From Streptomyces sp. JB150 (GTDB lineage: Bacteria > Actinomycetota > Actinomycetes > Streptomycetales > Streptomycetaceae), in the NCBI RefSeq assembly GCF_011193355.1, contig NZ_CP049780.1, forward strand, positions 7,036,634 through 7,100,633: a stretch of DNA of 64,000 bases, written 5' to 3'. Positions 6,113 through 63,481 of this stretch are shown here, piece by piece. A model generated the notes under the pieces. That model saw only the letters and a program-made list of their open reading frames with translations, was not told where the DNA came from and did no database searches. Numbering within the stretch: position 1 is the stretch's first letter; every line of letters starts with the position of its first letter. The translations under genes were made by a program, and so were the position numbers.

Positions 6113-6400
6113 TCAGCCTGTCGACTCCTCGGGTGCCGGCTCCTCCTCCACGCCGGGCCCCTCGCCCGTACCACCGGAGCGGGGCGCGTCCCGGCGAGCG
6201 GTGCCCGCCTCGTCGGTGTCCGGGACGTCGGTGCTCTCATCGGCGTCCTCGTCCGGCGCGGCGTGCTGCGGCTCGCCGGGGCCCGAGGGCCCGGTGGGCA
6301 CGTCCCAGGGGTCCTCGCCCTCGCGGACCTGCTGGTCCGGCAGGTCGCGCGGTACGGGGTCGGCGTTACGGCCGGGTTCGGCGTCCCGGTGTTCGTCCAC
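6113..6400 (-). CDS. Small acidic hypothetical protein
   Basis: The product has 95 residues and is very rich in Asp, Glu, Pro and Gly, with no predicted membrane segment and no motif I recognise. GTG at 6400 is preceded by AAGGAG with a good spacer, which argues that it is translated. It follows the epimerase gene on the same strand at a distance of 59 bases and may share its transcript. It is probably intrinsically disordered. No function can be assigned. Confidence 0.55.
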   Translation of the reverse strand: MDEHRDAEPGRNADPVPRDLPDQQVREGEDPWDVPTGPSGPGEPQHAAPDEDADESTDVPDTDEAGTARRDAPRSGGTGEGPGVEEEPAPEESTG

Positions 6401-6459
6401 GATGTGCTCCTTCTCGGTGTCGTTGCCGTGCTGCCGGCGGGGGTGTCACACGCCGGCGG

Positions 6460-51441: not shown

Positions 51442-54270
51442 TCACGCCAGCTGCCGCCGCACCAGCTCGTGCAGGCGGCCGCCGGTGTCCGCGAGGAGCT
51501 GGGCGGGCGGGCCCTGCTGGGCGATCCGGCCGTTGTCCATCACGATGACCCGGTCGGCGTCCAGCACCGTCGACAGCCGGTGGGCGATCACGACGCGGGT
51601 CGCGTCGAGGGCCTTGGTGCTCTCGATGACCCGCCGCTGCGTCTCGTTGTCCAGCGCGCTGGTCGCCTCGTCGAAGAAGAGGATGCGCGGGCGGCGGATC
51701 AGCGCCTGCGCGATCATCAGCCGCTGCCGCTGGCCGCCCGAGATCGCCCCGTTGCCGGCGACGATGGTGTGCAGGCCCATCGGCATGCGCTTGATGTCCT
51801 CGGCGAGCCCCGCCATCTCCGCCGCCGCCATCGCCTCCTCCGGCGTGTACGGCTCGGTGCCGCAGATGACGTCCAGGATCGACCCGGTGAACGGCTGCGC
51901 GTGCTGCAGCACCACCCCGCACTGCCGCCGTACCGCCGACTGGTCGAGCGCGGCCAGGTCCTGGCCGTCGTAGAGGACACTGCCCGAGGTCGGGCGGTCG
52001 AAGCCGATCAGCAGCCGCAGCAGCGTGGACTTGCCGCAGCCGCTCGGGCCGACGATCGCCACGAACTCGCCGGGCCGCACGGCGAAGGAGACGTCGTCGA
52101 GGACGAGCGGACCGTCCTCGGAGTAGCGGAAGGACAGCCGCCGTGCCTCGATCGCGCCGGACAGCCGCCCCGGCCGGGTGCTGGCCGTGCGCACCTCGGG
52201 CAGCTCCCGCAGCACCGGCTTGATCTGCTCGTACAGCGGCAGTGCCGCCACCAGCGACACGAACGCGCCGGTCAGCTGGGTGACCGAGGTCAGCAGCATG
52301 GTCACCGACGTGTGGAACGCCAGGAACTCGGCCGCCGACATCGAACCCCGCGCCGGCCCCGCCAGCAGCATGAACATCAGCAGCGAGCACAGCGGCAGAT
52401 ACACCGCCCCGAGCACCGTGGAGAGGTTCTTGATCCGCCCGAGCCGCTGCTGGAGCTCCCGGCTGCGCGCGAACTCCTCCGCCCACGCCGCGTACGCGTA
52501 GTTCTCGGCCGCCGCCACCCGCAGCTTCGGCAGGCCCCGCAGCGTCTGGAACGCCTGGTTGTTCAGCTTGTTGGTGAGCACCGTCAGCCGCCGCTGCCAG
52601 CGCACCTGCCACAGCCCCAGCCCGAGGAACACGGCCGAGACGACGACCAGCATGGCCACCGCCGCCAGCGCCATCGGCACGCTGTACCACAGCAGCAGCC
52701 CCAGGTTCACCGCCCCGACCGTCACCGACTGGGCGACCGTCGGGCCGACCCCCGCGAGCAGCCGGCGGATCGCGCTGATGCCCATCGCCGCACTGGCCAG
52801 CTCACCCGTGGACCGCCCGGTGAAGAACCTCGTCGGCAGTCGCAGCAGCCTGTCCCACACGGCCGGCTGCAGCGTCGCCTCGATCCGGCCCTCCAGCCGC
52901 AGGAGCGTCAGGTTCTGCAGCAGCATGAACGCCGCCGCCACCACACTGCAGGCGATGACCGCCGCGCACACCTGCGCGATCAGCCCGCTCTGCGCCTTCG
53001 GCACGTACTCGCCGAGCACCTTGCCGGTGGCGATCGGCACCAGCGCGCCGATCGCCACCGTCACCAGCCCGCTCAGCAGCAGCGCGGTCACATCGCCGCG
53101 CGTGCCGCGCAGACAGAACCGCAGCAGCCCGAGCGGACCCAGCGGGCGGTCCGGCAGCGGCCGGTAGAACATCACCGCGCGCGGCTCGAACTCGCCCGCG
53201 TTGGCCTTCTCGACCGGCGTCTCACGCCCGGTCGCCGGATGAACGGCCACATAGCCGCCGCGCCGCCACAGCAGCGCGACCGGCGCCCCGGACAGCGCCC
53301 GCCGCCCGACCAGCGGTCCGGCGTTCTCCCGCCACCAGGCGCCGTCGAGCCGCACCGCGCGGGTGCGCACCCGCGAGGCGAGCGCGATCCGCTCCACCGG
53401 GTCGAGGCGGTCGCTCTCCGTGCCCCCGTGGCCCGGATCGGCCAGCGCGATCCCGGCCGCGCGGGCCACCAGCCGGCACGCCGCGTAGGTGGCGTCCGCG
53501 TCGGCGGCCGTCGTCCGCCGCTCCGAGGAGCGGCCGATGGCCGCCAGCAGTGTCCGGTCGGCCCGCGCACGCACCTGCTCACCGGCCTTGATGCCGGCCG
53601 CGGCACGCGTCTCGTGGCTGCGCTCCAGCTGCTCGATCCACCGGTCCAGCGTGGTCAGCAGGCGGTACTGCTGGTCCACCAGGCTCTGCCACAGCGCCGG
53701 GTCCATCAGCAGATCGGCGGCGGCCTCCGCGCCGTACAGCGAGCCGTACTGGACACTGCCCGGCGGCACCTGCATCCAGAACACGTCGTCGTCGGTGACC
53801 GCCCCGGCCCCCTCGACGGCGCCCTCCGACGCCATCGGCGCCTGGAAGAGCACCGACAGGCCGCGGCCCACGCCCAGCGCGAGGGCGTACTCCAGCGGGC
53901 TCGTCGTCGGCGGCACGTACTGCGGATTGCCGTACTCGTCGTACGACCAGGTCTGCGTGGCCGCCGGCTGGTACAGCTCGCGCAGGCCGATGCGGTGCAC
54001 CACACAGCCCCGCACCGGACGCGCCACCAGCGTGTGCTGCGGGCCCGCCACCGGGCCGAGCAGCAGCGTGCCCGCCTCCAGCCGGCCCAGGTGGTGCCAG
54101 TGCCCCTGCCGCGCCGCGTCCACCGCGAACAGGTCGAGCGCGCCCGCCGCGACCAGCCACAGCACCTGCGGACCCTCCAGGTCGAGCCGGGTCAGGGCCG
54201 ACCCGTCGATCGGCGTGCCCAGCGAGGACAGGGCGCCCAGGACCAGGTCGCCCTCGTCGACGGCTGTCAT
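51442..54270 (-). CDS. NHLP-type bacteriocin export ABC transporter, permease/ATPase without peptidase
   Basis: The protein has 942 residues. About 380 N-terminal residues form the unusual non-peptidase region of this subfamily (LDLEGPQVLWLVAAGALDLF, FWMQVPPGSVQYGSLYG). An ABC membrane domain follows, then an ATPase with IVGPSGCGKSTLLRLL, ISGGQRQRLMIAQAL and LFFDEATSALDNE. It pairs with the C39-containing protein, probably as a heterodimeric exporter. Its ATG is one base after the C39 gene stop, so the genes are coupled. The expected cargo is the GG-leader peptide encoded at 57406. Confidence 0.93.
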   Translation of the reverse strand: MTAVDEGDLVLGALSSLGTPIDGSALTRLDLEGPQVLWLVAAGALDLFAVDAARQGHWHHLGRLEAGTLLLGPVAGPQHTLVARPVRGCVVHRIGLRELYQPAATQTWSYDEYGNPQYVPPTTSPLEYALALGVGRGLSVLFQAPMASEGAVEGAGAVTDDDVFWMQVPPGSVQYGSLYGAEAAADLLMDPALWQSLVDQQYRLLTTLDRWIEQLERSHETRAAAGIKAGEQVRARADRTLLAAIGRSSERRTTAADADATYAACRLVARAAGIALADPGHGGTESDRLDPVERIALASRVRTRAVRLDGAWWRENAGPLVGRRALSGAPVALLWRRGGYVAVHPATGRETPVEKANAGEFEPRAVMFYRPLPDRPLGPLGLLRFCLRGTRGDVTALLLSGLVTVAIGALVPIATGKVLGEYVPKAQSGLIAQVCAAVIACSVVAAAFMLLQNLTLLRLEGRIEATLQPAVWDRLLRLPTRFFTGRSTGELASAAMGISAIRRLLAGVGPTVAQSVTVGAVNLGLLLWYSVPMALAAVAMLVVVSAVFLGLGLWQVRWQRRLTVLTNKLNNQAFQTLRGLPKLRVAAAENYAYAAWAEEFARSRELQQRLGRIKNLSTVLGAVYLPLCSLLMFMLLAGPARGSMSAAEFLAFHTSVTMLLTSVTQLTGAFVSLVAALPLYEQIKPVLRELPEVRTASTRPGRLSGAIEARRLSFRYSEDGPLVLDDVSFAVRPGEFVAIVGPSGCGKSTLLRLLIGFDRPTSGSVLYDGQDLAALDQSAVRRQCGVVLQHAQPFTGSILDVICGTEPYTPEEAMAAAEMAGLAEDIKRMPMGLHTIVAGNGAISGGQRQRLMIAQALIRRPRILFFDEATSALDNETQRRVIESTKALDATRVVIAHRLSTVLDADRVIVMDNGRIAQQGPPAQLLADTGGRLHELVRRQLA

Positions 54271-54271
54271 C

Positions 54272-56506
54272 TCATCGCTCCCTGACCAGTGCCGCGTACG
54301 CTCCGCCGCGTGCCACCAGCTCCGCGTGCCGCCCGCGCTCGACGACCGTGCCGTGCTGGAGGACCACGATCTCGTCGCTGTCCCGCACGGTGGACAGCCG
54401 GTGCGCGATCACCACACAGGCGCAGCCGCGCCGCCGCAGGTTGTCCATCACCACCAGTTCCGTCTGCGCGTCGAGCGCGCTGGTCACCTCGTCCAGCACC
54501 AGGACGCTCGGCCGGCGCACCAGCGCCCGCGCGATCTCCAGCCGCTGGCGCTGCCCGCCGGAGAAGTTCCGCCCGTCCTGCTCGACCCGGCTGTGGATGC
54601 CGCCCGGACGGCGCATCACCACGTCGTACAGGGCCGCGTCCCGCAGCGCCTCGATCACCGCGTCGTCCGGGATCGACGGGTCCCACAGCGCCACGTTGTC
54701 GCGGATCGTGCCCTCGAAGAGGAACACGTCCTGGTCGACGAAGGAGACGGAGGCCGCGAGCGCGCCGCGCGGAATGTCCTCCAGACGCTGCCCGTCGATG
54801 CGGATGACGCCCTCCCATGGCGTGTACAGACCCGCGATCAGCCGCGACACGGTCGACTTGCCGCTACCGGACCCGCCGACCAGCGCCACCTGCTGCCCCG
54901 GCCCGACGGTCAGGTCGAAACCGGTCAGCAGCGGCTTGTCCAGCGGGCTGTAGCCGAAGGTGACGTTCTCCAGCTCGACGTGCCCGTGCAGCCGCCGCGT
55001 GGACTCCCCGCCCGTACGGCTGTACAGCGGGTCCGCGCGGAAGTTCTCCACGTCCTTCAGCCGCGCCACGTCCGCCGCGAAGTCCTGGATGCGGCCCGCG
55101 ACCCCGTTGAGCCGGGTCAGCGGCGCCGTGAACCGGGTGACCAGCGCCTGGAAGGCGACCAGCAGACCCACCGAGATATGACCCTCGACGGCCCGCAGCC
55201 CGCCGATCCACAGGATCAGCGCGCTGTTCAGCGTGGCCAGCGTAGGCGCCACCACACCCAGCCAGGCGCTCGGCACCCCGAGCCGCTGCTGCTCCTCCAG
55301 GGTGGTCGCGTGCTGCCCCGCCCACTTGCGGAAGTAGCCGTCCTCGCCGCCGGTCGCCTTCATCGTCTCGATGAGCTGCAGACCGGAGTACGCCGTCGTG
55401 GTCAGCCGGGCGTTGTCCGCGCGCAGCTTCGCCGTACGGGTCGCGCGCAGCCGGATCACCACGCGCATGGCGACGAGGTTCAGCAGCGCCACGCCGATGC
55501 CGACGAACGTCAGCTGCGGGTCGTACGTGTAGAGCAGCACCGCGTAGAGCACGACGACCACCGCGTCCACGCCCGCGGCCGCGAGGTCGCGGGCCAGGGT
55601 CTCGGCGACCGCGTCGTTGGACTGGAGGCGCTGCACCAGGTCGGCCGGGCTGCGCTGGGAGAAGAAGGTGACCGGCAGCCGCAGCAGATGGCGCAGGAAG
55701 CGGGCGCTGGACAGGGTCGAGGAGATGATCCGGCCGTGGTGCAGGTTCGCCTGCTGCAGCCAGGTCAGCACCAGCGTGAGCAGCACGCACGCGCCCATGG
55801 ACGTGAACAGCACGTCCAGCAGCGAGGTCTGCCCGCCGATGAGGAACATGTCGATGTACGTCCGGCTGAGCGCCGGCACCGCCGCGCCGACCAGCACCAG
55901 CAGCAGGCTCGCCAGGACGGCGGCGGGCAGCGTGCCCGCCGTGCCGCGCAGCCGGGCGGGCAGCGCGCCGAGCACACCGGGCCGGCGCCCGCCCCTGGTG
56001 AAGTCCGCGCCGGGCTCCATCACCAGCACCACACCGGTGAAGCTGCCGTCGAAGTCCTCCATCGGCACGAACCGGCGGCCCTTGCCGGGGTCGTTGACCC
56101 ACACGCCGCGGCGGCCGAAGCGGCGGCCCATGCCGTCGTAGACGACGTAGTGGTTGAACTCCCAGAACAGGATGGCCGGTGCCTGCACCTCGGCGAGCGC
56201 GGCCAGGTCCATCTGCATGCCCTTGGCCGTCAGGCCGTAACCGCGGGCCGCCTTCAGCAGGTTGCTGGCGCGCGAGCCGTCGCGCGAGACACCGCAGGCG
56301 ATGCGCAGCTCCTCCAGCGGGACGTGCCGGCCGTAGTGGCCGAGCACCATCGCCAGGGAGGCGGCGCCGCACTCGACGGCCTCCATCTGGAGCACGGTGG
56401 GGGTGCGCACGGTACGGCGGCGGGCCTTGGGGACCGTGCGCCGCGGCGGGGCGGCCCGGCGCCGGCCCCGGGTTTCCCCGGCGGTGGTGGTCACGGCAGC
56501 AGCCAA
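54272..56506 (-). CDS. NHLP-type C39 peptidase / permease / ATPase exporter (PCAT)
   Basis: The protein has 744 residues. An N-terminal C39 protease has LQMEAVECGAASLAMVLGHY with catalytic Cys46, NHYVVYDG with His119 and NDPGKGRR with Asp139. Such domains cut leader peptides after double glycine during export. A six-helix permease and an ATPase follow, with LVGGSGSGKSTVSRL, FSGGQRQRLEIARAL and LVLDEVTSALDAQ. The catalytic residues all look intact, so both processing and transport are predicted. It overlaps the HlyD gene by 16 bases. Confidence 0.95.
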   Translation of the reverse strand: MAAAVTTTAGETRGRRRAAPPRRTVPKARRRTVRTPTVLQMEAVECGAASLAMVLGHYGRHVPLEELRIACGVSRDGSRASNLLKAARGYGLTAKGMQMDLAALAEVQAPAILFWEFNHYVVYDGMGRRFGRRGVWVNDPGKGRRFVPMEDFDGSFTGVVLVMEPGADFTRGGRRPGVLGALPARLRGTAGTLPAAVLASLLLVLVGAAVPALSRTYIDMFLIGGQTSLLDVLFTSMGACVLLTLVLTWLQQANLHHGRIISSTLSSARFLRHLLRLPVTFFSQRSPADLVQRLQSNDAVAETLARDLAAAGVDAVVVVLYAVLLYTYDPQLTFVGIGVALLNLVAMRVVIRLRATRTAKLRADNARLTTTAYSGLQLIETMKATGGEDGYFRKWAGQHATTLEEQQRLGVPSAWLGVVAPTLATLNSALILWIGGLRAVEGHISVGLLVAFQALVTRFTAPLTRLNGVAGRIQDFAADVARLKDVENFRADPLYSRTGGESTRRLHGHVELENVTFGYSPLDKPLLTGFDLTVGPGQQVALVGGSGSGKSTVSRLIAGLYTPWEGVIRIDGQRLEDIPRGALAASVSFVDQDVFLFEGTIRDNVALWDPSIPDDAVIEALRDAALYDVVMRRPGGIHSRVEQDGRNFSGGQRQRLEIARALVRRPSVLVLDEVTSALDAQTELVVMDNLRRRGCACVVIAHRLSTVRDSDEIVVLQHGTVVERGRHAELVARGGAYAALVRER

Positions 56507-57297
56507 TCGACGGGACGCTGATCGGCCAGCCGGATCGAGCCGGTGGCCAGGGTCATGGAGGTGAGGCGGTGCGGCGGGCCGTCCGTGGTCGACCAGGCGT
56601 AACCGCTTCTCGTGGACGCCGACTTGTCGAGGCGGACGAGCACGGCGACGGGACGGCCGTCCTCGGTGAACTGCTCGCCGAGCCGGCCGTCACCGAGAAA
56701 CGCGCCGATGCGCTGGGCGGTCTGCGGCGAACGGTCCACGGACTGCACATGGCCGCGCAGCACGCCGTACTCCTGGGTGGGCACCGTCTGCACGGTGAGG
56801 TCCACGGGCGCGTCGGCGGGGATCGCGGAGGCGTTCTCGGCGGGGACGTACACCGTCGCGTACAGCGGGGCGTCCTTCGCCGTCACCTTCTCCACGGCGG
56901 CGACGTCCGCGCCGGTGGAGACGATCTGCCCGATCGTCGCGGCGAGCGCGGTCAGCCGGCCCGCGGCGAGGGTGCGGACCACGGTCTCGCCCCCGGCCGT
57001 ACGGACCTTCAGGACGGGGGAGTGGGCGGGCAGCCGCTCGCCCTCCTCGGCCAGAATCTCGGTGACCTGGCCGGCGACGGGGCTCTGCAGGACGTAACTG
57101 CCCTGACCGTGGGTGAGGATGGCGGGCGCGCTCACCGTGGACGACACGCTGCCCGTCACCGCCCACACCGACGCGGCGGCCATCGCGACGACCGTCACGG
57201 ACAGCACGAGCCAGCCCTGCGGGCGGGCGAGGCGCACGGGGAGGTCCAGCTCCTCGGACGACTGGAGCCGGGCGAGGGCCTGTTGGCGGAACTGCAC
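56491..57297 (-). CDS. HlyD-like NHLP export adaptor protein
   Basis: The protein has 268 residues from GTG at 57297. A short cytoplasmic start is followed by one membrane helix (residues about 28-48, GWLVLSVTVVAMAAASVWAV). The external part has the biotinyl-lipoyl-like hairpin LQSPVAGQVTEILAEEGERL and a second half, AGRLTALAATIGQIVSTGADV. Such adaptors link ABC exporters to the cell envelope; in a Gram-positive cell it probably acts as a periplasm-like extension or chaperone. It is the first gene after the peptide hairpin. Confidence 0.9.
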   Translation of the reverse strand: MQFRQQALARLQSSEELDLPVRLARPQGWLVLSVTVVAMAAASVWAVTGSVSSTVSAPAILTHGQGSYVLQSPVAGQVTEILAEEGERLPAHSPVLKVRTAGGETVVRTLAAGRLTALAATIGQIVSTGADVAAVEKVTAKDAPLYATVYVPAENASAIPADAPVDLTVQTVPTQEYGVLRGHVQSVDRSPQTAQRIGAFLGDGRLGEQFTEDGRPVAVLVRLDKSASTRSGYAWSTTDGPPHRLTSMTLATGSIRLADQRPVDWLLP

Positions 57298-57347
57298 GGG
57301 GACTCTTCCCTCACCGGGTGAACTGCGGGGACGTGCGTGGTGGCATC

Positions 57348-57388
57348 CGAAGAGTCCCGGAGCCGCACGGCGGCTCCGGGACTCTTCG
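57348..57388. terminator. Perfect 18-bp hairpin between the peptide and exporter genes
   Basis: Arms 57348-57365 and 57371-57388 pair at every position around a five-base loop. It starts 18 bases after the peptide stop and ends 51 bases before the HlyD GTG. It probably works as a partial terminator that keeps peptide mRNA above exporter mRNA, as in many bacteriocin operons. Confidence 0.88.
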
Positions 57389-57405
57389 TCCACCCTGAGG
57401 TGCGA

Positions 57406-57621
57406 TCAGAGACCGGCGACCAGGGCGGTGACCGGGGCGGTGTTCAGGCCGGTGACACCCTCGACGGTGCCGACGGCCGTGTCGACCAGGCCGGAGACCG
57501 GGGCGACGCCGTCCACCAGGCCGGTGACGGTGCCCAGCGAGTTCACGTGCAGGCCGCCGGAGACGTTGTCGAGCTCGGCGTCGGAGATCTCGGCGGTCTC
57601 AACCTGGGGGGTGGAGTTCAT
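57406..57621 (-). CDS. Cys-free double-glycine-leader peptide, likely cargo of the C39 exporter
   Basis: The product has 71 residues from ATG at 57621, with AAGGGAAG seven bases upstream. The leader ends in EISDAELDNVSGG (Gly22-Gly23), a classic C39 cleavage motif. The predicted mature part of 48 residues has no Cys, Lys, Arg, Trp, Phe or Tyr, one His and a net negative charge. It repeats GLVDG and GLVDT and is built of Gly, Val, Thr, Leu and Ala. No lanthionine can form without Cys, so an annotation as a lantipeptide would be wrong for this sequence. Secreted signal, surface-active peptide and unusual bacteriocin are all possible. Confidence 0.85.
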   Translation of the reverse strand: MNSTPQVETAEISDAELDNVSGGLHVNSLGTVTGLVDGVAPVSGLVDTAVGTVEGVTGLNTAPVTALVAGL

Positions 57622-58081
57622 GATGGAACTTCCCTTCATATGGATATCTCTCAAGGGGGGAGCGGCCCCCTCTGGGGACAGACGGACGGCCGCGCACCGC
57701 GGGCCCGGCGCTGTGCGCCCCGTGCAGGGCGTCCCTCGCGGCCCCCGCGGTGCGATGGATCAAAGCACGCGGCGACGTTCGTCCTCCACTCAACAAGCCC
57801 CCTCACCAGGGCATTTGAACCCTCGACGTGCCCAGCCGTGCAGGTGCGCGCACGGCTTGTCGGCGACTTCTTCACATGCCGCACGGCATCGGCGCACACC
57901 ATCGCTTGCCGCCCGTTCGGCGAATCCGGCACACCCGCCCCAATGGCGCGTCCGGCAGCGTCGGCCGGGGCGGCCCGTCCGTGTCCGGTGAGCCGGTTGG
58001 GCAGTCGCTGTGCAGATTTCCTGAAGCCCTCGTTCCGCTACGCGGCCGGGACGGAACGTGGCCGGTCGATCGCGGAACGTG
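57622..58081. other. 460-base region upstream of the GG-leader peptide
   Basis: No gene is supported on either strand. The peptide promoter should lie here; no clear -35/-10 pair stands out. The stretch also holds the downstream end of the thioesterase transcript. Composition is slightly less GC-rich near 57770-57900. Confidence 0.5.
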
Positions 58082-58495
58082 TCAGCCCAGAAGGGCGTAG
58101 ACCGTGCTCGCGTGGGCCGCGAGGTCCCCGTTCGGCTCCGCCGTCATCGTGACGTCGGCGAACGCCATCCGGCGGCCCAGCTTGGTGAGCACCGCCGTGA
58201 CCAGGACGTCCGAGCCGGTCACCGCGCGCTGGAACGACGTCGACTGCTGCACGGTCGTCATCGGCACGAAGGCGCCGCGCGCCGCCGAGACGGCGATCAC
58301 CGTCGCCGTGTCCGCCGCGGCCATCAGCGCCTGCCCCGACAGCGCGCCGCCCTCCCGGGCCAGCCGGTCCGACCAGGGCAGCCGCAGGGTCGCCCGGTCG
58401 CCGCCCAACGACTCCACGGCGAGGCCGAGTTCCCGCACCCAGGGGGCGAAGTTCGCGGACAGGATCTTCTCGGCCTCGGCCGGGGTCATCGTCAT
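58082..58495 (-). CDS. PaaI-family hotdog thioesterase
   Basis: The protein has 137 residues from ATG at 58495. EGGALSGQALMAAADTATVIAV is the hotdog central helix, with the active-site region of PaaI-type thioesterases. VPMTTVQQSTSFQRAVTGSDV and GRRMAFADVTMTAEPNGDLA form the following strands. Such enzymes hydrolyse acyl-CoA thioesters; the acyl group is not predictable. It lies upstream of the peptide locus on the same strand but 460 bases away. Confidence 0.87.
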   Translation of the reverse strand: MTMTPAEAEKILSANFAPWVRELGLAVESLGGDRATLRLPWSDRLAREGGALSGQALMAAADTATVIAVSAARGAFVPMTTVQQSTSFQRAVTGSDVLVTAVLTKLGRRMAFADVTMTAEPNGDLAAHASTVYALLG

Positions 58496-58706
58496 GCAGG
58501 GACTTTTCCCCGGCGGGCCGTTCGGTATCACCCTTCTGCGTGTCTTGTATCGCCCGTCCGGGTGACCGGTTTCTCGCCAACGCGGTCCGGTTTCGCACAC
58601 ACGGTTGAACGCCTCGCGCGTGCGCTGCGTACCAGTGGCCATCCAGGCGCCCCCAACCGCCGCCGCAGGGCGGCCCGCACCCGGTCCCCCAGGAGGTCGA
58701 GAAGTC

Positions 58707-60158
58707 TTGAGTCACAAGCGCATTTCGAAGCGCAAGGCCGTGCTGGCCGCGGGCGGCGTGGCGGCGCTCGGAGCGGCGGCGCTCCTGCTGCCCCACGCCA
58801 ACGCGTCCCAGGACGGCGCGGCGCAGACCCAGGCCGCACCCCGTGCCCTGAAGGCCGCGGACGCCTCGGACTTCGCCGGCCGGCTCGCCGGACTGCTCGG
58901 CGACGCCTTCGCCGGGTCCTACTACGACGCCGGCCGGCAGCAGCTCGTCGTCAACGTGGTCGGCGACGACAACCAACTCGTGGTCCAGGCCAAGAAGGCG
59001 GGCGCGGCGGTCCGCCAGGTCGACAACAGCACCGCCGAACTGCGGGCCGCCGCGCGGACCTTGAAGAGCGAGGCGACCATCCCCGGCACCGCCTGGGCCG
59101 TCGACCCCCGGACCAACAAGGTCGTCGTCACCGCCGACTCCACCGTCACCGGCGCCGCATGGGACACGCTGGAGTCCGCCGTGCGGAGCCTCGGCCAGGA
59201 GAAGGCGACCCTGCGCAAGTCCTCCGGCACGTTCAGGACCTTCGCCTCGGGTGGTGACGCCATCTTCGGCGGCGGCGCCCGCTGTTCCCTCGGTTTCAAC
59301 GTGACCGCGGGCGACGGCACCGCGGCGTTCCTGACCGCCGGCCACTGCGGCGTCGCGGCGGCCGAGTGGTCCGACGCCCAGGGCGGCGCGCCGATCGGCA
59401 CCGTCGACCAGGCGGTCTTCCCCGGTGAGGGCGACTTCGCGCTGGTGAAGTACGACGACCCCGCCATCCAGGCGCTCAGCGAGGTCAACGCCGAGGGGCA
59501 GGCCGTGCCGATCCTCCAGGCGGCGGAGGCCACCGTCGGTCAGGAGGTGTTCCGCATGGGCAGCACCACGGGCCTCGCCGACGGCACGGTCACCGGCCTC
59601 GACGCCACCGTCAACTACCCGGAGGGCACCGTCACCGGGCTCATCCAGACGAACGTCTGCGCCGAACCCGGCGACAGCGGCGGCTCGATGTTCACCCAGG
59701 ACGGCCTCGCCCTCGGCCTCACCTCCGGCGGCAGCGGTGACTGCACGGCCGGCGGGGAGACGTTCTTCCAGCCCGTCACCACCGCGCTGGAGGCGGTGGG
59801 CGCGACGCTCGGCGAGGGCGGCGCGGCGGGAGCCGGCGGCGCGGACGAGGGAGCCGGCGGGGACCAGGGTGCCGGCGGCGAAGAAGGCGTCGGCGGTGAC
59901 GAAGGCGTCGGCGGTGACGAAGGCGTCGGCGGCGACGCACAGGACGCCGGCAACGGCGGGCACGACGCCGGAAACGAGCAGCAAGGCGCCGGGAGCGGTC
60001 AGGAAGGGGCCGCTCCCGGTCAGGAAGGCGCCGCCCCCGGTCAGCAGGCGGGCGGCGACCACCAGGGCACCGGCGACGGGCAGGACACCGGAGCCGGTGA
60101 GCAGCCCGGCGGCGAGGACGACGGCGCCGGCGAGTCCGGGCCGACCCAGCCTCACTGA
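58707..60158 (+). CDS. Secreted S1-family serine protease with acidic Gly-rich tail
   Basis: The protein has 483 residues and starts with TTG at 58707, nine bases after a perfect AGGAGGT. A basic signal peptide (SHKRISKRKAVLAAGGVAAL) precedes an alpha-lytic-type prodomain. The protease has His213 in LTAGHCG, Asp243 in EGDFALVKYDD and Ser324 in EPGDSGGSMF. Pairs of Cys around His213 and Ser324 match streptogrisins. The last 115 residues are Gly-, Asp-, Glu- and Gln-rich with an 18-bp triplicate repeat and no known fold. It should be secreted and self-activated. Confidence 0.92.
   Translation: MSHKRISKRKAVLAAGGVAALGAAALLLPHANASQDGAAQTQAAPRALKAADASDFAGRLAGLLGDAFAGSYYDAGRQQLVVNVVGDDNQLVVQAKKAGAAVRQVDNSTAELRAAARTLKSEATIPGTAWAVDPRTNKVVVTADSTVTGAAWDTLESAVRSLGQEKATLRKSSGTFRTFASGGDAIFGGGARCSLGFNVTAGDGTAAFLTAGHCGVAAAEWSDAQGGAPIGTVDQAVFPGEGDFALVKYDDPAIQALSEVNAEGQAVPILQAAEATVGQEVFRMGSTTGLADGTVTGLDATVNYPEGTVTGLIQTNVCAEPGDSGGSMFTQDGLALGLTSGGSGDCTAGGETFFQPVTTALEAVGATLGEGGAAGAGGADEGAGGDQGAGGEEGVGGDEGVGGDEGVGGDAQDAGNGGHDAGNEQQGAGSGQEGAAPGQEGAAPGQQAGGDHQGTGDGQDTGAGEQPGGEDDGAGESGPTQPH
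59884..59937 (+). repeat. 18-bp repeat, three copies, in the protease tail
   Basis: Units at 59884, 59902 and 59920 encode EGVGGD three times; the third has one silent change. It lies in the acidic Gly-rich C-terminal region. Confidence 0.88.
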
Positions 60159-62682: not shown

Positions 62683-63291
62683 GTGTTGATCCGGGTGCTG
62701 CTGGTGCACGACGCGTGTCTGGTGCGATCGGTCCTGGCGGACTGGCTGCGCCGGGAACCCGACCTGGGGGTCTACGACTCCCCTTGGCGGGCCGCCCCGG
62801 GGCGGGTCCGTTCCTTACGGCCGGACGTCTGCGCCGCGGACCTCGAGTACACGGGCCGCTACGGCATCCCGCCGCTGAACGAGCTGTCGGGGCGCGGCGG
62901 CGACAGACCCCCGCGTCTGCTGGTGCTGGCCGGCGCGGACCGGCCGGGGCTGCTCAGACGCGCCGCCGAGGCGGGCGCGCTCGGCTACGTCGACAAGGCG
63001 GGCCCGCCCGAGCGCCTGGTGCACGGAATCCGCCAGGTCGCCGCGGGGGAACGTTTCGTCGACGACTCTCTCGGCTTCGGCTTCCTCAAGGCGGCCCAGA
63101 TGCCGCTGACCGGCCGCGAGCTGAGCGTGCTCAGCCTCGCCGCCCAGGGCGCGTCCATCGACGAGATAGCCGGCAGCCTGCATCTCTCGCGCGGCACCGT
63201 GCGCAACTACCTCGCGGCCATCACCCGCAAGACCGGCGCCCGCAACCGCATCGACGCGATACGGATCTCGCAGGGCGAGGGCTGGCTGTAG
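62683..63291 (+). CDS. RamR/AmfR-like LuxR-family response regulator
   Basis: The protein has 202 residues from GTG at 62683. The receiver has LLVHDACLVR in place of the usual DD pair, a phospho-acceptor Asp in DVCAADLEYTG, Ala where a Thr or Ser switch residue is expected (LLVLAGAD) and Lys in YVDKAG. The LuxR helix-turn-helix reads LTGRELSVLSLAAQGASIDE, then LHLSRGTVRNYLAAITRKTG. RamR and AmfR activate class III lanthipeptide operons, and this gene converges on a RamS-like precursor. The atypical receiver suggests it may not need phosphorylation. Confidence 0.88.
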   Translation: MLIRVLLVHDACLVRSVLADWLRREPDLGVYDSPWRAAPGRVRSLRPDVCAADLEYTGRYGIPPLNELSGRGGDRPPRLLVLAGADRPGLLRRAAEAGALGYVDKAGPPERLVHGIRQVAAGERFVDDSLGFGFLKAAQMPLTGRELSVLSLAAQGASIDEIAGSLHLSRGTVRNYLAAITRKTGARNRIDAIRISQGEGWL

Positions 63292-63303
63292 CGCTCGCGG
63301 GAA

Positions 63304-63348
63304 GGCCCCGGGCGGTGCCTCCCTCGCGGGAGACGGCCGCCCGGGGCC
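63304..63348. terminator. Bidirectional terminator between the regulator and the lanthipeptide gene
   Basis: GGCCCCGGGCGG pairs perfectly with 63337-63348, with further partial pairing inside (CTCCC/GGGAG) and a TCGC apex. It starts 13 bases after the regulator stop and ends 17 bases from the precursor stop. Confidence 0.85.
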
Positions 63349-63364
63349 GGTGATGCGCTGCCGG

Positions 63365-63481
63365 TCAGAGACAGAGCAGGACGCTCGCGGCGCTGATGCA
63401 GGAGAGCAGGCTCACCGTGCTGGCGCCGCCGCCACCGGTGTGCTCGTCGGCTTCCATCGTCTGCAGGTCGAGAAGAGCCAT
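63365..63481 (-). CDS. Class III lanthipeptide precursor (RamS/AmfS-like)
   Basis: The precursor has 38 residues, too short for routine gene calling. ATG at 63481 has AAAGGAA upstream. The leader starts with LLDLQTME, the conserved recognition motif of class III leaders, and has a GGGG stretch before the core. The core contains STVSLLSC and SAASVLLC, two S-x2-S-x3-C motifs that can form labionin or lanthionine rings separated by a single Ile. It resembles SapB/AmfS-type morphogens and the avermipeptin/erythreapeptin group. The synthetase gene precedes it on the same strand, as ramC precedes ramS. Confidence 0.95.
   Translation of the reverse strand: MALLDLQTMEADEHTGGGGASTVSLLSCISAASVLLCL

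Follow-up and report, generated by a model that had tools for sequence, protein, structure and literature searches.

In class II bacteriocins and microcins, a double-glycine (GG) leader, a C39 ABC transporter and a HlyD-type adaptor accompany an unmodified, Gly-rich core, and hydrophobic residues at positions -4, -7 and -12 matter in double-glycine leaders. SapB is a class III lanthipeptide that is made by RamC and has neither a GG leader nor a C39 exporter. In Synechococcus elongatus, the small GG-motif proteins EbfG1-4 depend on the C39 peptidase transporter PteB for efficient secretion; they function in biofilm formation, and amyloid is formed by EbfG1-3 (PMC4997328, PMC9981879). The NHLP/Nif11 leader peptides, as described in PMC2887384, combine a conserved leader with many hypervariable cores and are associated with exporters of the TIGR03794, TIGR03796 and TIGR03797 families.

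The Streptomyces locus analysed here lies in a stretch of 64,000 nucleotides from Streptomyces sp. JB150 (hereafter, the window) and partly resembles each of these systems. Like EbfG/PteB, it pairs a set of small GG-motif proteins with a C39 peptidase transporter, but it belongs to a different phylum, and the Streptomyces paralogues, for which a matrix role would be putative, lie at scattered genomic positions. The exporter families and the scheme of one leader with variable cores are those described for the NHLP/Nif11 systems, but the Streptomyces leader matches neither TIGR03793 nor TIGR03798 at E<=1, and neither a TOMM nor a LanM enzyme is seen in the locus. With class II bacteriocins and microcins, the locus shares the GG leader, the C39 ABC protein, the HlyD-type adaptor and a Gly-rich core, but the peptide is acidic, free of Lys and Arg, and conserved, and there is no immunity gene between the peptide and the exporter. 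Finally, the peptide is small, hydrophobic and predicted to be secreted, as is SapB/RamS, and a RamR-like gene flanks 26 of 80 related loci, but SapB lacks the GG leader and the C39 exporter that are present here.

The precursor gene, delineated from the open reading frame, its homologues and their alignments, occupies positions 57406..57621 of the reverse strand (71 codons plus stop) and starts with an ATG at 57619-57621. It is preceded by the ribosome-binding-site-like sequence GAAGGGAAG (57629..57637, reverse strand), which recurs with minor variation across 18 aligned loci, the window's own included. Database searching at E<=1e-3 gives 632 homologues of the peptide, a conservation that rules out a chance open reading frame; a profile that includes other core types found 1291 proteins among the 7991 candidates scored. 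Thus, the gene, its start, its ribosome-binding site and the GG end of its leader, all proposed in the first-pass annotation, are real and conserved features. For close comparison, we used 81 orthologous sequences (72 distinct), namely, the window's own and those of 80 named loci, 79 from Streptomyces and one from Kitasatospora aureofaciens, which are close to the window's locus because they are the best 80 of 326 confirmed relatives; accordingly chosen for similarity, the 80 loci show 85-94% whole-peptide identity. The locus is also found in S. violaceoruber (L160), and a search of 39 genomes from other genera (G061-G099) did not find the peptide.

The leader comprises residues 1-23 (57553..57621, reverse strand) and reads MNSTPQVETAEISDAELDNVSGG. 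The hydrophobic residues Val20, Leu17 and Ile12, at positions -4, -7 and -12 with respect to the cleavage site, and both Gly22 and Gly23 are each invariant in all 81 orthologous sequences. The same pattern recurs in 100 precursor readings across the leader genes, although this check is not independent because most of the readings were gathered with a pattern that demanded such residues. The predicted mature core (57409..57552, reverse strand) consists of 48 residues with a charge of -3 and contains no Cys, no aromatic residues, and no Lys or Arg; it is hydrophobic (GRAVY 1.0) and includes GxxxG spacing. Cys is absent throughout the 81 orthologous sequences, as are aromatic residues from their cores, and only two sequences contain Lys, Arg or His beyond residue 24. 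The proposal that the core lacks basic residues holds for Lys and Arg only because there is one His (His25), and of the proposed GLVD repeats, two copies are indeed present in the window's peptide but the repeat is not conserved, with Asp at residue 47 in 32 of the 81 sequences. The median dN/dS is 0.15 for the leader and 0.52 for the core (NG86 method in high-GC genes, with 533 and 599 usable pairs, respectively, of 600 drawn), so that, by this comparison of orthologous sequences, the leader is under stronger constraint than the core. The structure model of the peptide is helical and poor (mean pLDDT 60.5) and lends no support to a fibre; hydrophobic periodicity in the core reaches z 3.3 at 110 degrees, uncorrected for the nine angles tried. 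Taken at the sequence level, these features support the reading of the gene as one for a GG-leader peptide.

Immediately downstream, on the same strand, are the genes for a HlyD-like adaptor (56491..57303, taking the GTG start at 57303), a C39 peptidase-permease-ATPase (ABC1; 54272..56506) and a second NHLP-type ABC permease-ATPase (ABC2; 51442..54270), the order and type of genes anticipated in the first-pass annotation and borne out by profile searches. ABC1 and ABC2 exceed the NCBIfam cut-offs for NHLP exporters (TIGR03796, 1022.6 bits against 853.3; TIGR03797, 887 bits against 709.4). The adaptor matches PF13437 with 42.8 bits and TIGR03794 with 142.1 bits, under the 156.2 cut-off of the latter, its best stretch being residues 106-270 aligned with the C-terminal part of the model. 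In the C39 domain of ABC1, Gln40, Cys46, His119 and Asp139, which we take to be the catalytic residues, are invariant throughout the 121 aligned matches, of which some come from the same genome. Among solved structures, this domain best matches 6mpz, a double-glycine protease domain (E 4.6e-42).

The pairing of the leader gene with the NHLP-type C39 exporter appears strict across the genomes compared. A GG-leader gene precedes the HlyD and C39-ABC genes in every one of the 80 named loci, which are the nearest found, at a distance of 13-240 bp (median 84) from the HlyD match; the second ABC gene comes next in 79, the remaining locus (L118) being a 4-kb contig. Among 61 Streptomyces genomes (the window's own and 60 relatives), 40 encode a C39-ABC protein that is at least 80% identical, and all 40, a sample that partly overlaps the 80 loci, have a GG-leader gene before HlyD, including one (G002) in which the HlyD and ABC genes are split over separate contigs. 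For 10 of these 40, the genome search with the peptide gave a weak hit or none at the linked gene; the cores differ and are Cys-free. Thus, the adjacency that the first-pass annotation expected holds in both samples, and loss of the peptide gene from relatives that keep the exporter, which it had named as contrary evidence, occurs in 0 of 40. The Cys-free, acidic nature of the core fared equally well: Cys is absent from all 38 distinct exporter-linked cores, with charges from -3 to -1, and from four further cores.

Between the stop codon of the peptide gene and the HlyD start, there is a strong hairpin (57347..57389, reverse strand; 19 pairs with at most one mismatch), and of the 81 orthologous gaps, 77 have a folding z-score below -2 relative to mononucleotide shuffles. 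The hairpin is a candidate attenuator or partial terminator that would likely keep the peptide mRNA above the exporter mRNA, fitting a bulk product. A search of positions 57300-58100 for known RNA families gave four matches to unrelated families, all far under the gathering scores. Divergently from the peptide gene, there is a gene that by eye encodes an S1-type protease with a long C-terminal tail rich in Gly, Asp, Glu and Gln (58605-60158, forward strand), and a homologue is present in 77 of the 80 named loci.

The leader is not confined to the exporter locus. Fourteen loci without an exporter have genes whose leader is almost identical but whose cores are unrelated; the leader was read in 13 of them, the leader pattern having missed one (L032). 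A 26-column leader profile, scoring at most 28 candidates per genome, gives 341 matches in 218 of 295 Streptomyces genomes; 99 of the 295 have from two to five matches (two in 79, three in 17, four in 2 and five in 1), a count of profile matches in which the second match of most two-copy genomes is known by profile alone. Recounting 30 genomes with every candidate scored yielded the same counts, with one match (G102) at E 0.0099. Another 40 stretches, chosen from 26 multi-copy genomes, yielded 41 leader genes on reading, and an exporter lies beside the leader gene in only three (L217, L234 and L241). The unlinked cores are rich in Gly, Ala and Val and differ from the linked core; 13 of 52 distinct ones contain Cys, in a survey that took readings of up to 78 residues from the initial unlinked set. 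Inspection by eye of the neighbours of unlinked leader genes in nine stretches gave no lead. Several individual loci are worth recording. In L204, the unlinked leader gene (6213-6440, forward strand) adjoins genes for a small protein and for a 1522-residue protein that by eye resembles a polymorphic toxin; in L216, two tandem leader genes on the reverse strand start about 640 bases apart, with no exporter in the 12.5-kb stretch; and the core of the unlinked peptide of L218 (5988-6221, forward strand) contains HHGHHGHHGHHG and, judging from this motif, might bind metal.

A C39 domain is present in 221 of the same 295 genomes, and 217 have both the leader and the exporter. Only one genome (G001, 79% complete) has the leader without the exporter, and four (G028, G038, G159 and G227) have only a divergent exporter (Fisher p 4e-63, a value that ignores shared ancestry). 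Because the leader is shared and because leader and exporter co-occur, we infer that one exporter probably serves all leader genes of a genome in many relatives. This arrangement is invisible in the window's own genome because only one leader gene was found there, two other matches having E 0.8 and 2.5. The first-pass annotation assigned the peptide its own export system, and whereas the strict linkage stands, the exporter is probably common to the unlinked paralogues.

A second feature that many of the leader genes share is the element CGTGCTTTGATCC. In the window, it is located at 57757..57769 of the reverse strand, the sole exact copy in the genome, and is one of several conserved blocks in the alignment of 18 linked upstream regions; exact or near-exact copies lie upstream of several unlinked leader genes. 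In 38 Streptomyces genomes, there are 23 occurrences and none of the reversed control. Over the 295 genomes, the element is present in 153, only three of which have no leader match, with 172 copies in the summed table (150 listed and checked, and 22 more). Of the listed sites, 121 have a leader match in the same orientation 41-160 bp downstream, and when the other 29 were fetched and read, 21 proved to precede a leader gene, so that 142 of 150 are before a leader gene and eight are elsewhere; the reversed-pattern control gave 0. The exact element is absent from several leader families and from each of the ten genomes whose linked peptides diverge most. It is also present in one other genus, in eight of ten genomes, where the peptide search found none; in all eight of these loci (L174-L181), it stands 224-237 bp upstream of a similar long membrane-like open reading frame, which spans at least 338-427 codons and extends beyond the sequence examined, and one genome (G073) has a second copy at a different place. 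The element is a candidate promoter or operator.

We propose that ABC1, the adjacent exporter protein, would recognize the 23-residue leader through its C39 domain and cut after Gly-Gly, that the 48-residue core would then exit via ABC1, ABC2 and HlyD, probably unmodified, and that the hairpin after the peptide gene may hold the peptide mRNA above that of the exporter. In many Streptomyces, the same exporter would also serve between one and four unlinked paralogues that share this leader, many of them under the shared upstream element and with differing, Gly/Ala/Val-rich cores, and the resulting hydrophobic low-complexity peptides may be deposited on the surface of hyphae or within the matrix in an EbfG-like manner. 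As a whole, this reading is held with moderate confidence, its processing and export part being much firmer than the surface or matrix role, which is suggested by analogy: we favour this role because the EbfG set is the closest working analogue and because the NHLP systems set a precedent for one leader with many cores. Against a surface role, the ram (SapB) cluster is the sole neighbour that points to it, and its regulator is present in the flanks of only 26 of 80 loci.

That the peptide is instead an unmodified class II bacteriocin or a microcin-like toxin, a Gly-rich hydrophobic peptide that enters the membranes of competitors, would agree with the GG leader, the C39 exporter and the HlyD protein, which are typical of bacteriocins, and with the GxxxG spacing and the helices predicted at low confidence. 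The Pfam bacteriocin models PF10439 and PF04369 are weakly matched, mainly over the leader, but both scores are under the cut-offs (12.5 bits against 27.1 and 12.5 against 23.1, respectively). Furthermore, the core is acidic with no Lys or Arg, the linked peptide is conserved in the 80 loci, themselves chosen for similarity, and an immunity gene cannot fit into the 13-240 bp between the peptide and HlyD. Given this conservation and the lack of an evident immunity gene in that gap, we consider a bacteriocin unlikely, if the strongest of the rival readings. A signalling peptide detected by the producing strain or its neighbours in the manner of GG pheromones would likewise be small and exported, as predicted here, and could account for the conserved upstream region and for the RamR-like regulator in the flank of 26 of 80 loci; but by eye, no kinase-receptor pair was noticed among the neighbouring open reading frames of the window, and the gene neighbourhood varies between clades, so that we regard signalling as quite unlikely.

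The possibility that the peptide is a RiPP modified by an unlinked enzyme ahead of export draws on the Thr-, Gly- and Val-rich core, on three matches to YcaO (PF02624) in the window's genome and on a gene about 6 kb away, adjoining a RamS-like gene, that presumably encodes a RamC-like class III synthetase. NHLP-type exporters, moreover, are described in PMC2887384 as frequently carrying modified peptides. But LanM (PF13575) has no match in the window's genome and is found in 7 of 28 exporter-bearing compared to 3 of 10 other Streptomyces (G000-G037), YcaO is absent from 9 of the 28 and both from 5, and the RamC-like gene lies in the flank of only 18 of 80 loci (flanks of at most 10 kb, some shorter). 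The first-pass annotation correctly saw no modification enzyme within the operon, and no obligate unlinked enzyme emerges among LanM and YcaO, the classes profiled beyond the locus, in the 28 exporter-bearing genomes; hence modification is improbable, and the core is likely exported as encoded. The weakest alternative is the database name itself, 'type A2 lantipeptide', carried by most of the named homologues among the 120 matches listed, repeated in PMC13047742 and in line with a weak PF04604 match over the leader (12.7 bits, under the 21.7 cut-off), but thioether rings need Cys, which is missing in 81 of 81 orthologous sequences, and together with the lack of LanM this bears out the difference from lanthipeptides seen at first pass and makes the name almost certainly wrong.

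The ram genes of the window deserve a separate remark. The RamS-like gene (63365-63481, reverse strand) and the RamR-like gene (62683-63291, forward strand) are separated by about 74 bp (63291-63365), and this SapB-type cluster is without the ABC genes, presumably ramA and ramB, that are found between ramS/ramC and ramR in relatives (for example, L066).

The proposed GG-peptide export reading brings together components of which the leader class and the exporter class were already known, and the family is in the databases, as a lantipeptide; what is new is that the exporter is probably not private and that further genes combining this leader with different cores are found elsewhere in the genome. 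The first-pass statement that no product like this had been described holds in that no function for the peptide family was found in the open-access literature, and fails in that the family itself had been catalogued. Nor did that literature yield a single exporter in Streptomyces with scattered, Cys-poor, apparently unmodified cargo under a common element. More tentatively, and with the odds in our judgement somewhat against it in full, this could be a genus-wide secretome in which a single exporter handles multiple GG-peptide cargoes, with an anchor peptide from the exporter operon and scattered paralogues that share its leader, carry hypervariable, unmodified cores and have a promoter element of their own, all contributing to an unrecognized extracellular or hyphal-surface protein layer.

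About three quarters of the sampled Streptomyces carry the leader (218 of 295) and the exporter (221 of 295), and the peptide is misnamed in the databases as a lantipeptide, a class that its own sequence excludes. The element CGTGCTTTGATCC provides a direct way to ask when the system is active. If the cargo is secreted unmodified and in bulk, it would constitute an overlooked part of the extracellular proteome in a major antibiotic-producing genus, and the natural leader and exporter would be available for peptide secretion.
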